From assembly GCA_023957115.1 (NCBI GenBank), contig JAMLHN010000005.1, positions 1 through 64,000 of the forward strand: DNA of 64,000 bases, in the 5' to 3' direction. The stretch's first letter is position 1; every line of letters starts with the position of its first letter. Under the pieces are notes generated by a model. That model did no database searches and was not told the DNA's origin. It saw nothing but the letters and a program-made list of their open reading frames with translations. Both the position numbers and the translations under genes were made by a program. Positions 39,499 through 44,118 of the stretch are shown here, in pieces. Origin of the DNA: Thermomicrobiales bacterium (GTDB lineage Bacteria > Chloroflexota > Chloroflexia > Thermomicrobiales > UBA6265).

Positions 39499-39527
39499 TT
39501 GAATAGGGTACCCCAGTAGGGTAGTAT
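39499..39527 (+). promoter_or_regulatory. Promoter with embedded CsoR/CstR-type operator
   Basis: TTGAAT (39499-39504), a 17-nt spacer, then TAGTAT (39522-39527). The inverted repeat TACCC-CAGTA-GGGTA (39509-39523) fills the spacer and overlaps the -10 element. GGGTACCC (39506-39513) is a second adjoining palindrome. Repressor binding would block RNA polymerase directly. Confidence 0.7.
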
Positions 39528-39589
39528 TCACTTACGAAAGATAATGCCGGCAAAGCTGGCGTTTCGGCTACAGGCACGGAGTATCCCGG

Positions 39590-39868
39590 ATGGCAAACAT
39601 CTCCCAACTCTCCGAAGAGGAGCGCAACGACATCGTTCAGCGGCTCAAGCGCATCGAAGGGCAGGCGCGGGGCGTGCAGAAAATGGTGGATGAAGATCGT
39701 GAGTGCGGCGACATCCTCACGCAGCTCGCATCCATCCGCGCCGCGGTCAATAGCCTCAACGGCGAGCTGTTGGAGGCGTATCTCCTCCGTTGTATCCAGA
39801 ACCCGGACGATTTTGGCTCTCCCGAAAAAGCGGTGCAGCAGGCTGTACGGGCGTTGGTCCGCAGCTAA
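39590..39868 (+). CDS. CsoR/FrmR family repressor with Cys-Tyr-Cys site (CstR-like)
   Basis: A 92-residue all-helical DUF156 repressor opening with the family helix (IVQRLKRIEGQARGVQKMV). Cys39 (RECGD) and Cys68 (LLRCI) are 29 residues apart, as in all CsoR/CstR proteins. The position equivalent to the copper-ligand His of CsoR is Tyr64 (EAYLLRC), so Cu(I) binding should be lost and a thiol-only site remains, the pattern of persulfide sensors such as CstR. The downstream dioxygenase-rhodanese fusion, the classic CstR target, supports this. GGAG lies 8 nt before the ATG. It is probably autoregulated through the operator in its own promoter. Confidence 0.88.
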   Translation: MANISQLSEEERNDIVQRLKRIEGQARGVQKMVDEDRECGDILTQLASIRAAVNSLNGELLEAYLLRCIQNPDDFGSPEKAVQQAVRALVRS

Positions 39869-39888
39869 CCACTGAGAAGGATTCCACT

Positions 39889-41280
39889 ATGATCATCGAT
39901 CGTGTTTTCACCCCTGGGCTTGCCCAGGTTGCCTATCTCGTCGCGGACGAACGCACCGGTGATGTCTCCGTCATCGATCCCCGGCGTGACGTTCAGGTTT
40001 ACCTCGACTGGGCGAACGAACGGAATCTCCGAATCAGCGCCATCCTCGAAACGCACGTTCATGCGGACTTCGTTTCCGGTGCGCTTGAGCTTCACAACGC
40101 AACCGGCGCGCCCATCTACTCGAGTCAGCTCGGCGATCAGGAATTCGATCATCGGCGACTGCAGGATGGCAATCGGGTCTCGGTCGGTGAGCTCATCCTT
40201 GAGGCCCGTTGGACTCCCGGCCATACGCCCGAGCACATCGTCTTCCTTCTCTTCGATCCAGCGTCGAGTGAGTCCCCACAAGCCATGTTCAGTGGCGACC
40301 TCATCTTTGCCGGGGAGGTTGGCCGTCCAGACCTGCTCGGCGCGACACACACCGAACGGCTTGCCCGGCAGCTTTTTCAAACGCTCACCCATCGGATCGC
40401 GGATCTCCCCGACGATCTGGTGATCTATCCCGGGCATACGGCCGGATCGGCGTGCGGCCGCAAGATTGGCGATGCTGCCGCGACGACTCTGGGCGCTGAG
40501 CGCCAGTTCACGTATGCATATCAGTTCGACAACGGAGCCGACTTCGTACAGGGCATCATGGACGAGATGCCGGCTCCGCCGCCGTACTACCCACGTATGA
40601 AGCTCGTCAATCGCGTTGGGCCCGATCCGATCGCATCGTTGCCCGCGGGCGAAGCCATGACCGTCGACGAGGTCAGCGCCGCGGTTGCCGCCGGCGCCTT
40701 GATCGTGGATGCGCGTGACGAGCGATCCTTCGACCGGGCGCACATTCGCGGCTCGTTCTACGCCGGTTCGGGCGTGGATTTCGTCGCCTGGGTTGGGTGG
40801 CGCGCGCCCTACGATCAGCCCATCGTCCTGCTGCTCGATCGAGATGAGGATTACCAGGCTTTCCAAACCGAGCTGCATCGAATCGGTATCGACGCGGTGG
40901 CTGGGTACCTGGATGGCGGTATCGATGCCTGGCTCGATCGCGGGCAACCCGTCGACCGATTGCAGGCGCTCTCGCCGGAGCAATTCCAATCGATGCTCCA
41001 GGCTTCCGATGATGTCGTGCTGCTCGATGTCCGTAGCCGGGACGAATGGAAATTGGGTCATATCGAGCGGGCACGCAATGAGTTCGCGGGAGACATCTCG
41101 GCGGGCGCTGAGGTCGAAACCGGTGACGCCGAGATCGTCATGCTGACCTGCGCCACCGGATATCGCTCGCGTGTCGCGGCCAGCATGCTGGAGTCGCGGG
41201 GCGTCGCGAGCCTCGTCCAGCTCGATGGTGGCATGGACGCCTGGGATGCGGCCGGGCTCCCAGTTGCCTACGATCGATGA
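39889..41280 (+). CDS. Persulfide dioxygenase-rhodanese fusion (CstB-like)
   Basis: 463 residues in three parts. Residues 1-235 are a metallo-beta-lactamase-fold persulfide dioxygenase with THVHADFVSG, TPGHTPEH, SGDLIFAGEVGRPD and YPGHTAGSACG supplying iron ligands. Residues 255-350 form a rhodanese-like domain with no catalytic Cys (LLLDRDED in the loop). Residues 365-460 form an active rhodanese with Cys421 in TCATGYRS. This order, dioxygenase, pseudo-rhodanese, rhodanese, is that of CstB from Staphylococcus, which oxidises low-molecular-weight persulfides and gives thiosulfate. ATG 39889 has GAAGGATT upstream. It is the second gene of the operon, 20 bp after the repressor. Confidence 0.9.
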   Translation: MIIDRVFTPGLAQVAYLVADERTGDVSVIDPRRDVQVYLDWANERNLRISAILETHVHADFVSGALELHNATGAPIYSSQLGDQEFDHRRLQDGNRVSVGELILEARWTPGHTPEHIVFLLFDPASSESPQAMFSGDLIFAGEVGRPDLLGATHTERLARQLFQTLTHRIADLPDDLVIYPGHTAGSACGRKIGDAAATTLGAERQFTYAYQFDNGADFVQGIMDEMPAPPPYYPRMKLVNRVGPDPIASLPAGEAMTVDEVSAAVAAGALIVDARDERSFDRAHIRGSFYAGSGVDFVAWVGWRAPYDQPIVLLLDRDEDYQAFQTELHRIGIDAVAGYLDGGIDAWLDRGQPVDRLQALSPEQFQSMLQASDDVVLLDVRSRDEWKLGHIERARNEFAGDISAGAEVETGDAEIVMLTCATGYRSRVAASMLESRGVASLVQLDGGMDAWDAAGLPVAYDR

Positions 41281-41290
41281 GGATGGGGTG

Positions 41291-41641
41291 ATGAGTTTCC
41301 TGAGCAGAATCTTCGGCCGCGTTCCGGCGGTCGCGGAGATCGATGTTCCGGCCACAGCCGCTGCGCTCAAAGACGGTACGGCCCAGGTGGTCGATTGCCG
41401 GATGGAACGGGAATGGAGCTCTGGTCACATCAAGGGTTCGACGCTCATTCCACTTGGCTCGATCGAATCGCATCTGAACGAGCTCGATCGCGAGCGTCCG
41501 GTCATCGTCGTTTGCCGGTCGGGGCATCGAAGCTCGATTGCCGCCCGGCAGCTGATCTCGGCTGGGTTCGTCGATGTGAAGAGCATGAAGGGTGGCATCA
41601 ATGCCTGGTCGCGTACAGGCAACACGCTTGTCTCATCCTGA
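41291..41641 (+). CDS. Single-domain rhodanese, copy 1
   Basis: 116 residues with a short N-terminal segment MSFLSRIFGRVPAVAE, then a rhodanese fold: VVDCRMEREWSSGHIKGST and the active-site loop CRSGHRSS with the persulfide-carrying Cys, ending GGINAWSR. It transfers sulfane sulfur to acceptor thiols. GAGGATGGGG precedes the ATG, 10 bp after the fusion gene. It is closely similar to the next gene in VIVVCRSGxRSxIAARQL and DVKSMxGG, a tandem duplication. Confidence 0.88.
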   Translation: MSFLSRIFGRVPAVAEIDVPATAAALKDGTAQVVDCRMEREWSSGHIKGSTLIPLGSIESHLNELDRERPVIVVCRSGHRSSIAARQLISAGFVDVKSMKGGINAWSRTGNTLVSS

Positions 41642-41699
41642 CCCGAGTACCCTTCGCAGAGTGATGACGAGACATGACGAGAACAAGGTGGAGAAATAG

Positions 41700-42035
41700 A
41701 TGAACCCAGGACGCTCGGCCCTCGATCCATTGGAAGTCGACGTCGCGACCACCGTCGCTGCACTCGATGATCCAGGTATTCAGATCGTCGATTGTCGGGA
41801 GCAGGACGAATGGGATGCCGCGCATGTCGACGGGATGACCCTGATGCCGCTGGATACCATCGGCCAGCGTCTCGACGAGCTCGACAAGAACAAACCGTTG
41901 ATCGTCGTTTGCCGCTCAGGACGCCGAAGTCTGATCGCTGCCCGGCAGCTGGCTGCCATCGGCTTCACAGATGTCAAAAGCATGAATGGCGGCTTGATCG
42001 CCTGGACGGAACAGGGACATCCCCTGGTTTTCTGA
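41700..42035 (+). CDS. Single-domain rhodanese, copy 2
   Basis: 111 residues: IVDCREQDEWDAAHVDG, active-site loop CRSGRRS, and GFTDVKSMNGGLIAWT at the end. It lacks the N-terminal extension of copy 1. GGTGGAG lies 7 nt before the ATG. The loop has Arg where copy 1 has His (CRSGRRS versus CRSGHRS), which may tune acceptor preference. It belongs to the same persulfide operon. Confidence 0.88.
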   Translation: MNPGRSALDPLEVDVATTVAALDDPGIQIVDCREQDEWDAAHVDGMTLMPLDTIGQRLDELDKNKPLIVVCRSGRRSLIAARQLAAIGFTDVKSMNGGLIAWTEQGHPLVF

Positions 42036-42053
42036 ACGAAAGGAAAGAGAAAG

Positions 42054-42482
42054 ATGACTGCCGGAACCAGCGCGCCAGTTGCGCTCGAACCGCGCGCAAC
42101 CCTTCCCGTCCCCATCGACGATGCACTCGACGCGACGACCGAAGCGCTCAAAGCCGAAGGTTTTGGCGTGTTGACGAAGATCGACGTCCGGGCGACCATG
42201 CAGGAGAAGCTGGGCGAATCGTTCGATCCCTATCTGATTCTGGGCGCCTGCAATCCCAAGTTGGCGCATACCGCGCTGAGCACCGATCCCGATGTCGGAT
42301 TGCTTCTCCCTTGCAACGTCGTTCTGCACGAGCAGAACGGCTCGACCACCGTCTCGATCCTCGATCCCGCGACCATGTTTGCGGCGGCAATCGACCGGCC
42401 GGAGCTGGAACCCGTCGCCCGCGAGGCTGGCGAATGCCTGCAACGTGTCGCCAGCGCTCTCGCCGCACAGGGCATCAGGTAG
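42054..42482 (+). CDS. DUF302 domain protein
   Basis: 142 residues of the DUF302 family: LDATTEALKAEGFGVLTKID, LGESFDPYLILGACNPKLAH, LLLPCNVVLHE and DPATMFAA. Two Cys residues (ACNP and LPCNV) are well placed for a thiol or metal role. The family often travels with rhodanese, persulfide dioxygenase and sulfur-sensor genes, and its biochemical role is not established. AAAGGAAAGAGAAAG precedes the ATG. It is the last gene of the CstR-type operon, 18 bp after rhodanese copy 2. Confidence 0.85.
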   Translation: MTAGTSAPVALEPRATLPVPIDDALDATTEALKAEGFGVLTKIDVRATMQEKLGESFDPYLILGACNPKLAHTALSTDPDVGLLLPCNVVLHEQNGSTTVSILDPATMFAAAIDRPELEPVAREAGECLQRVASALAAQGIR

Positions 42483-42563: not shown

Positions 42564-42602
42564 TCATTCCGCTTCGGGCGTCGCCGCAAGCGGAATGACG
42601 AG
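42560..42602. terminator. 15-bp hairpin at the 3' end of the LysM gene
   Basis: CTCGTCATTCCGCTT (42560-42574) pairs exactly with 42588-42602. It spans the last codons and stop of the LysM gene and lies 78 bp after DUF302, so it could end both convergent transcripts, though no T-run follows. Confidence 0.45.
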
Positions 42603-42890
42603 CTCCTGACCGACGAAGATGTTGTCCTGACTCTCCAGATTATTCGCCTGGATGATCGCATCCCAGGTGACATGGAACATATCGGCAATCCCGGACAATG
42701 TATCTCCCTCCTGCACCACATACCGGCTCTCGGTCAAGCGAGGTGTCGGTGAAAGGGCAATCGTCACCGTCACGATGGTGAACACGGGCTCGTTTGCCAG
42801 CTCGTCGCCGTCATCGGACGACGACCGGTCGAGCTGCGCGCACCCCACCACCAGCACCATCGCCAGAAGCACTGCCCCCCATGCCGTCAC
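42564..42890 (-). CDS. LysM-domain lipoprotein
   Basis: A small envelope protein. A hydrophobic signal segment AVLLAMVLVVGC ends in a lipobox Cys, followed by a Ser/Asp-rich linker, then a LysM peptidoglycan-binding module (YVVQEGDTLSGIADMFHVTW, then IIQANNL and IFVGQELVIPL). The start is uncertain: the frame is open to an ATG at 42977, but that stretch runs through a 17-bp perfect palindrome, so the GTG at 42890 (108 residues) is preferred although no good ribosome site is seen. The last codons lie inside a hairpin. Confidence 0.7.
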   Translation of the reverse strand: MTAWGAVLLAMVLVVGCAQLDRSSSDDGDELANEPVFTIVTVTIALSPTPRLTESRYVVQEGDTLSGIADMFHVTWDAIIQANNLESQDNIFVGQELVIPLAATPEAE

Positions 42891-42900
42891 ACGAGTAGGA

Positions 42901-42938
42901 GCCCCCCTCCTCTCCCAGGATTGGGAGAGGAGGGGGGC
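42901..42938. repeat. Perfect 17-bp hairpin at the LysM gene start
   Basis: GCCCCCCTCCTCTCCCA (42901-42917), 4-nt loop GGAT, and the exact complement (42922-42938). It lies 11 bp upstream of the preferred GTG and would occlude the ribosome-binding region on the minus strand. Confidence 0.85.
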
Positions 42939-43016
42939 AGGGGGGCGGTGAGGGTCGAGATGCCGCTCTTCGATCATTCTTCCTTAGGACGCATTCCTAC
43001 GTATGACCCGCCCGTG

Positions 43017-43046
43017 ATTCTCTCAGGACTCAGGACCTCTAACTCA
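43017..43046. repeat. F2/F1 heptamer run at the nitrilase gene stop
   Basis: TCTCAGGACTCAGGACCTC steps in sevens and joins CTAACTCAG. The minus-strand CTG AGT TAG codons at its edge form the end of the nitrilase-family gene. Confidence 0.5.
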
Positions 43047-43890
43047 GCACCACCGATTCATCCGGCCAGCGATAGAGATCCGCCTGCCGGTTCTCGACCG
43101 AGGGCACCTGCCGCCGCACCTTCTGAATGTGATCCCGGTCGACCGTCGTTGTCACTACGCATTCCCGATCGGGGGCAGTCGCAACGACCGTTCCCCACGG
43201 ATCGGCGATCAACGACCGGCCATAGCACCATTTACCTGACGAGTCCGGCCCGAACTGGCCGCAGGTCACCATGTAGACCTGGTTCTCGATCGCCCGAGCG
43301 CGGATCAGGACCTCCCAATGGTCCTTCCCGGTCGTCATCGTGAACGCGGCCGGAAGCACGATCACCTCGGCGCCGTGCAAGCGCAGAATGCGGAAGAGCT
43401 CCGGGAACCGGAGGTCATAGCAGATCGCCAGTCCGACCGTCACGCCGTCCAGATCGAAGGTCACAATCTCGTCCCCCCGCTGGACCGTGTTCGATTCACG
43501 GTACGAGGCGACACCATCGAGCACGACATCGAACATGTGGATCTTGCTGTATTTGGCGACGATCTCACCGCTGGGATCGATGACCACCGTCGTGTTGAAC
43601 AGTTTCGGTTCGCCCTCTCGCTGCTCCAGAATGCTGCCGCCATGCACGTAGATCCCATGCTGGCGGGCCTTTTCCGCCAACGCGCCGGTGACCGGCCCGG
43701 GGATGGATTCGGCGTTCGGCCGGTTCCCGGCTTCGTCACCGAGATACGTCCAGATCTCGGGAAGCACCACCAACCGCGCTCCGGTCGCGGCCGCCTGATC
43801 GATCAATCGCAAGGCGGTGTCGATATTTGCCGCTTTGTCTTCGCCGGAGTTCATTTGCAGGACGGCGACATCGAAGGCTGTGCTGGTCAT
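43039..43890 (-). CDS. Nitrilase superfamily carbon-nitrogen hydrolase (Nit-type amidase)
   Basis: A 283-residue alpha-beta-beta-alpha hydrolase with the full Glu-Lys-Cys triad: Glu in VVLPEIW, Lys in YSKIHMFD, Cys in AICYDLRFPE. FDVVLDG and GRSLIADPWG are family blocks. The CYDLRFPE form and length fit the Nit/omega-amidase branch, which hydrolyses deaminated glutathione or 2-oxo-dicarboxylate amides. The exact substrate is inferred only. ATG 43890 has AGGAG 8 nt upstream. It is divergent from the class II aldolase gene and ends inside a heptamer repeat. Confidence 0.9.
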   Translation of the reverse strand: MTSTAFDVAVLQMNSGEDKAANIDTALRLIDQAAATGARLVVLPEIWTYLGDEAGNRPNAESIPGPVTGALAEKARQHGIYVHGGSILEQREGEPKLFNTTVVIDPSGEIVAKYSKIHMFDVVLDGVASYRESNTVQRGDEIVTFDLDGVTVGLAICYDLRFPELFRILRLHGAEVIVLPAAFTMTTGKDHWEVLIRARAIENQVYMVTCGQFGPDSSGKWCYGRSLIADPWGTVVATAPDRECVVTTTVDRDHIQKVRRQVPSVENRQADLYRWPDESVVLS

Positions 43891-44118
43891 GGTGACGGCT
43901 CCTGGTGAATGACTGGGTCGAACCTGTGCCTGGATCATAACACTGCGGATCGAATGCTTTGCGGGAGCGGCAAACTCTTCTATTCTTTACCGGATACGTG
44001 GTTGTTCCAGTTCCTGGTTACCAGCCCGTTCCACTCGCGAACCATGAGAACTCCAGGTGCTGGCGATCGTGAACATGATCCTGGACGACCAACGAGGCAA
44101 GGAAGGAATCCGCTTACC

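Follow-up and report, generated by a model that had tools for sequence, protein, structure and literature searches.

A CsoR-family repressor with tyrosine at the metal position probably controls a reactive-sulfur detoxification operon in a Thermomicrobiales bacterium

The window analysed here, a stretch of 64,000 nucleotides from a Thermomicrobiales genome of the Chloroflexota, the phylum correctly surmised in the original prediction, contains five same-strand genes led by a CsoR-family repressor, which probably form an autoregulated operon for the detoxification of reactive sulfur, governed by a repressor that would sense persulfides or polysulfides. We favor this reading because the repressor retains its pair of cysteines and has lost both the Tyr38 and the His64 of copper sensors, the operon is co-conserved, its enzymes keep their catalytic residues and the operator lies inside the promoter. 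It builds on the genes, the catalytic residues, the operator-promoter layout, the conservation and the separation from copper-type proteins that are documented below. Circuits of this kind have already been described in Staphylococcus, under CstR, and in Streptomyces, under ScCsoR.

Table 1. The putative reactive-sulfur operon and its predicted control elements, with positions in the window
Feature	Position	Strand	Basis
Predicted sigma70-like promoter: -35 TTGAAT (39499-39504), 17-nt spacer, -10 TAGTAT (39522-39527)	39499-39527	+	Best match in the 200 nt upstream
Predicted CsoR-type operator GGGTACCCCAGTAGGGTA, in the promoter spacer and reaching the -10 box	39506-39523	+	Conserved in orthologs; shuffles
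CsoR-family repressor, 92 aa, E38/C39/Y64/C68	39590-39868	+	PF02583, E 2.7e-25; alignments
CstB-like fusion, 463 aa: persulfide dioxygenase domain, inactive rhodanese, active rhodanese	39889-41280	+	Pfam, 3r2u/3tp9, conservation in 15 relatives
Rhodanese, 116 aa, active-site CRSGHRS	41291-41641	+	PF00581, E 2.2e-20
Rhodanese, 111 aa, active-site CRSGRRS	41700-42035	+	PF00581, E 2.3e-18
DUF302 protein, 142 aa, at the 3' end of the operon	42054-42482	+	PF03625, E 2e-26

Pfam profile searches recover the repressor, the fusion, the two rhodaneses and the DUF302 protein in the order given by the original prediction, with 20, 10, 58 and 18 nt between successive genes from 5' to 3'. Downstream, on the minus strand (42564-43938), lie genes for a LysM-domain protein and a carbon-nitrogen hydrolase, which are apparently unrelated to the operon. 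The fusion combines a metallo-beta-lactamase fold with two rhodanese domains and is collinear with the PDB entries 3r2u (a metallo-beta-lactamase family protein, which we take to be the S. aureus CstB; 223 bits) and 3tp9 (304 bits). The catalytic Cys is missing from its first rhodanese domain and present in the second as C421 (LTC421ATGYRS). Across 15 fusion sequences, one of them cut by a contig end and another with a broken C-terminus, we found conservation of H56, H112, D137, C189 (in the GSACG motif after the dioxygenase domain) and C421 of the C-terminal rhodanese; the middle rhodanese has a Cys in none of them. The first three of these residues presumably correspond to the iron-site positions of the ETHE1-type dioxygenases. 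The CstB-like succession of dioxygenase, inactive rhodanese and active rhodanese that had been read from the sequence alone is thus upheld by both the collinearity and the key residues. CstB (3r2u) and the PDO-rhodanese fusions share this domain order and these residues with the window protein, although their identity to it is about 35-40%. The fusion is by itself unremarkable, since about 140 near-full-length versions were present among the matches listed from a 400-genome sample of Chloroflexota, mostly away from any CsoR gene.

Orthologs of the repressor, with 48-100% identity, occur in eight of the 32 genomes of the family, the window's own included, and the check on related genomes proposed with the original prediction finds the CstB-like gene adjoining the repressor in seven of these (the window and six others). 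Most of these loci, some of which are cut by contig ends, have further rhodanese and DUF302 genes; at the eighth locus a DUF302 gene stands beside the repressor and the fusion is absent. DUF302 genes recur near related repressors in Actinomycetota as well as near the orthologous repressors of the family.

The control region points to autoregulation. The palindromic core of the predicted operator, TACCC-N5-GGGTA (39509-39523), falls within the promoter spacer, and a bound repressor would consequently cover the promoter; the start given for the locus by the original prediction (39499) is exactly where the predicted -35 box begins. An operator is recognizable at all eight orthologous loci, and at seven of them a search of the upstream 200 nt for the best sigma70-like promoter selects one whose spacer, of 17-18 nt, contains it. 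The arrangement reads TTGAAT-AGGGTACCCCAGTAGGG-TAGTAT in the window, TTGACA-GGGGTACCCCCCTACCC-TATGAT at locus L331 and TTGATT-ACCCTACCCCCCTAGGG-TATGAT at L328. Similarity to the L328 site exceeds that of 1000/1000 dinucleotide shuffles in the window (for the 29-nt site) and at L143, L326 and L331. The shuffle score is weaker at L327 (205/1000, with the motif in the other orientation), L330 (62/1000) and L329 (59/1000), yet TACCC/GGGTA-type motifs are visible in each of them. The operator without mismatch occurs once in the assembly, and a search of the assembly for a wider regulon with up to three mismatches returned 11 sites, fewer than the 38 obtained with the reversed control. The additional sites are thus not above chance, and this lack of a wider regulon is a point against the proposed reading.

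We posit that the reduced repressor, as a tetramer, would sit on its own promoter, at the palindrome flanked by the -35 and -10 boxes, and block RNA polymerase. Persulfides or polysulfides, on accumulating, would react with C39, which might then become linked through a di- or polysulfide to C68 of a neighboring subunit, or might remain a persulfide aided by C68; the modified repressor would leave the DNA and allow transcription of the operon. The fusion would oxidize low-molecular-weight persulfide, yielding sulfite and perhaps, via its C-terminal rhodanese, thiosulfate, the two separate rhodaneses would move sulfane sulfur, and the DUF302 protein could act as a helper. In this scheme Y64 would not bind a metal; it would flank the dithiol site as an aromatic side chain for which Phe can substitute. 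The effector, the chemistry and the release from DNA are inferred from CstR and ScCsoR. In ScCsoR both Cys are needed, Cys37 is persulfidated and polysulfide releases the protein from an ATACC-N6-GGTAT operator that serves dioxygenase and rhodanese targets (PMC7533328), and in CstR di- to tetrasulfide links form between Cys31 and Cys60 (PMC9774590).

Alignment with solved CsoRs places C39, Y64 and C68 of the repressor in register with the Cys-His-Cys of the copper CsoRs; the protein thus has the CstR-type feature of a Cys pair with no metal-binding His in between. The copper-sensor set of Tyr38, C39, His64 and C68 is not matched, with E38 and Y64 standing in for two of its members. In copper sensors, Cu(I) binding is coupled to release from DNA by a hydrogen-bond network that probably includes both the His and the Tyr preceding the first Cys, the residues concerned in the M. 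tuberculosis CsoR being Tyr35, His61 and Glu81. The loss of both Tyr and His is consistent with a protein that has given up metal allostery.

We then compared 183 distinct CsoR-family proteins, these being the best matches to the window protein in a 400-genome sample of the phylum and in named GTDB genomes; as the sequences are related and were picked by similarity, the counts that follow are descriptive rather than independent trials. Tyr38 was always paired with His64 (107 proteins), and a copper-type P-ATPase lies no more than 2.5 kb from 79 of these 107, not one of which adjoins a thioredoxin gene; nor does any other of the 107. Of the 76 proteins without Tyr38, just one has such an ATPase neighbor, which, together with the precedents of ScCsoR and CstR, argues for a sulfur sensor; 42 adjoin a thioredoxin gene on the same strand whose product has a CxPC site, and up to 10 lie near dioxygenase or rhodanese genes. 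Residue 64 in these 76 is Tyr in 40, His in 17, Gly in five, Phe and Met in four each, and Asn, Val and Cys in two each. As far as sequence comparison goes, the retained Cys pair, the missing Tyr38 and His64 and the rarity of ATPase neighbors in the absence of Tyr38 support the thiol-based, non-copper sensor originally predicted. The accompanying suggestion that Tyr is a new occupant of the His position is not supported, Tyr being the commonest residue there among the non-copper-type relatives sampled. Relatives with His64 and no sulfur genes nearby, which taken formally would speak against the prediction, do exist among the 17 non-Tyr38 proteins with His64, but seven of the 17 are thioredoxin-linked and none lies near an ATPase, so that His64 alone does not imply copper. 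The non-copper class appears to be better recognized by its loss of Tyr38, and the residue before the first Cys accordingly reads a copper as opposed to a thiol context better than the metal position does.

Two roles for Tyr64 were considered and set aside. It is not diagnostic of persulfide sensing, or special to the window operon, as most Tyr64 relatives adjoin a thioredoxin gene rather than sulfur-oxidation genes and position 64 varies; and it is unlikely to be a ligand that requires its hydroxyl, because the eight orthologs alternate between Tyr (six) and Phe (two).

Thirty of the 40 Tyr64 genes are paired with a PF00085 thioredoxin gene, in the order trx-csoR or csoR-trx, and 26 of these 30 have a TACC-N5-8-GGTA motif upstream, as against 0.6 expected from shuffles. 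The typical site of the thioredoxin-linked genes is TACCCCCAGGGGGTA, a TACCCC/GGGGTA palindrome placed at or after the -10 box. Loci at which the Tyr64 gene lies directly beside a canonical thioredoxin include L154, L163, L165, L183, L186, L010, L016, L152, L153 and L241. The literature searches made found no published description of Chloroflexota Tyr64 trx-csoR operons. We tentatively suggest, with rather more doubt than confidence, that the Chloroflexota repressors with Tyr or Phe at position 64 and without Tyr38 constitute a distinct, undescribed CsoR branch, which would sense thiol oxidation or persulfidation via C39 and C68, with the aromatic residue tuning the site, and would mainly control thioredoxin, the window operon being one specialized output. 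The trx-csoR operons in complete Chloroflexota genomes offer direct access to thiol sensing by the family.

This prevalence of thioredoxin among the neighbors of Tyr64 relatives counts against a sulfur-specific reading, as it equally fits a general sensor of thiol oxidants or disulfide stress, whose C39-C68 pair would react no more readily with persulfides than with peroxide, hypohalous acids or electrophiles, which would likewise oxidize it, and for which the sulfur enzymes would be one output. The Thermus thermophilus protein TTHA1953, which likewise has Cys39 and Cys68 and controls a thioredoxin and sox genes, lends it further weight: its DNA binding is lost with H2O2 or Cu(II) and not with NaHS, a caution against taking persulfide as the signal (PMC10318464). 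The thioredoxin linkage does not separate this alternative from the persulfide reading because thioredoxin also removes persulfides (PMC7533328). Against a general thiol-stress sensor, every operon gene in the window and in the family handles sulfane sulfur rather than peroxide or disulfides, and both CstR and ScCsoR are reported to answer to sulfane sulfur; we therefore hold it to be unlikely, if worth keeping in mind.

A copper sensor, which would bind Cu(I) via C39, C68 and another ligand and have the sulfur genes as a copper response, is very improbable. Membership of the CsoR family and the resemblance of the operator to a copper-type site, ATACCCCTATGGGGTAT, near a CopZ-like gene of the same genome speak for it, but His64 and Tyr38 are both absent, neither the window operon nor its orthologous loci contain a copper gene, and a separate Tyr38/His64 CsoR exists in the same genome (C13). 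The site ATACCCCTATGGGGTAT, found upstream of the CopZ-like gene (L345 around 1498-1518; G000:C12:127384), is probably the operator of this copper-type paralogue, and cross-binding between it and the window operator is possible given how close the two sequences are. A sensor of formaldehyde or another electrophile, akin to FrmR, is scarcely credible, for although five of the eight orthologs (L143, L326, L327, L328 and L330) begin with Met-Pro-Ser, recalling the Pro2 that FrmR crosslinks to Cys35 (PMC5016687), residue 2 of the window protein is Ala, all eight retain C68 and the operon lacks a formaldehyde dehydrogenase.

Returning to the putative persulfide-sensing repressor, a tree based on about 85 columns places the window protein and its family orthologs, with weak support, inside a Chloroflexota group with mostly Tyr, Phe or Met at position 64. 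On the same short alignment, the AU test rejects a single clade with the dioxygenase-linked proteins of Actinomycetota (p 5e-5), and one with the Bacillota CstR-like proteins is unsupported though not clearly rejected (AU p 0.06). The former result suggests that CsoR-type repressors came to control persulfide oxidation, by independent origin or by acquisition, in more than one branch. In the Actinomycetota sample the non-Tyr38 proteins mostly have Gly64 and never Tyr64, and many have DUF302, dioxygenase or rhodanese neighbors. We also observed a dioxygenase with three rhodanese domains beside a Gly64 repressor (L039:4814-6520, Actinomycetota), a CoA-disulfide-reductase-like/rhodanese/TusA/DsrE fusion beside an Asn64 repressor (L072:5451-7982, Bacillota) and Met64 genes (L149:5840-10749 and L150) that lie ahead of genes for a 4Fe-4S/NrfD protein and for a molybdopterin oxidoreductase of the polysulfide-reductase or sulfite-dehydrogenase type. 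Position 64 thus appears to vary by lineage once metal sensing is lost, being Asn in CstR, Gly in most of the Actinomycetota proteins, an aromatic residue here and Met in some relatives.

Finally, the predicted circuit finds parallels in three characterized regulators. TTHA1953 resembles the window repressor in its Cys pair and in its control of sulfur genes; metals under reducing conditions do not release it, and it differs in that its sox targets lie far from the regulator gene and its operator, TACTATACCTTGGTATGGTA, has no long G/C tract (PMC10318464). ScCsoR (SCO0620) of Streptomyces coelicolor is likewise a two-Cys CsoR-like repressor, adjoins a PDO-rhodanese gene and a rhodanese, uses a palindromic TACC/GGTA operator and itself answers sulfane sulfur (PMC7533328). 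Its circuit, in contrast, has a TauE exporter, separate promoters and a dioxygenase with a single rhodanese, and its Actinomycetota relatives, mostly with Gly64, form a separate lineage. The CstR of the cst operons of S. aureus and Enterococcus faecalis shares with the window protein the CsoR fold family, the Cys pair and the absence of His at position 64, as well as the lack of Tyr38, the CstR structure sequence 7mq1 having Asp38 where the window protein has E38. These operons, too, place rhodaneses, and in S. aureus also the CstB fusion, under the repressor, and the palindromic G-tract operator overlapping the promoter that is typical of them is also predicted here. What sets the window-type operon apart from them is its DUF302 gene and the Tyr or Phe at position 64, where 7mq1 and its Bacillota relatives have Asn.
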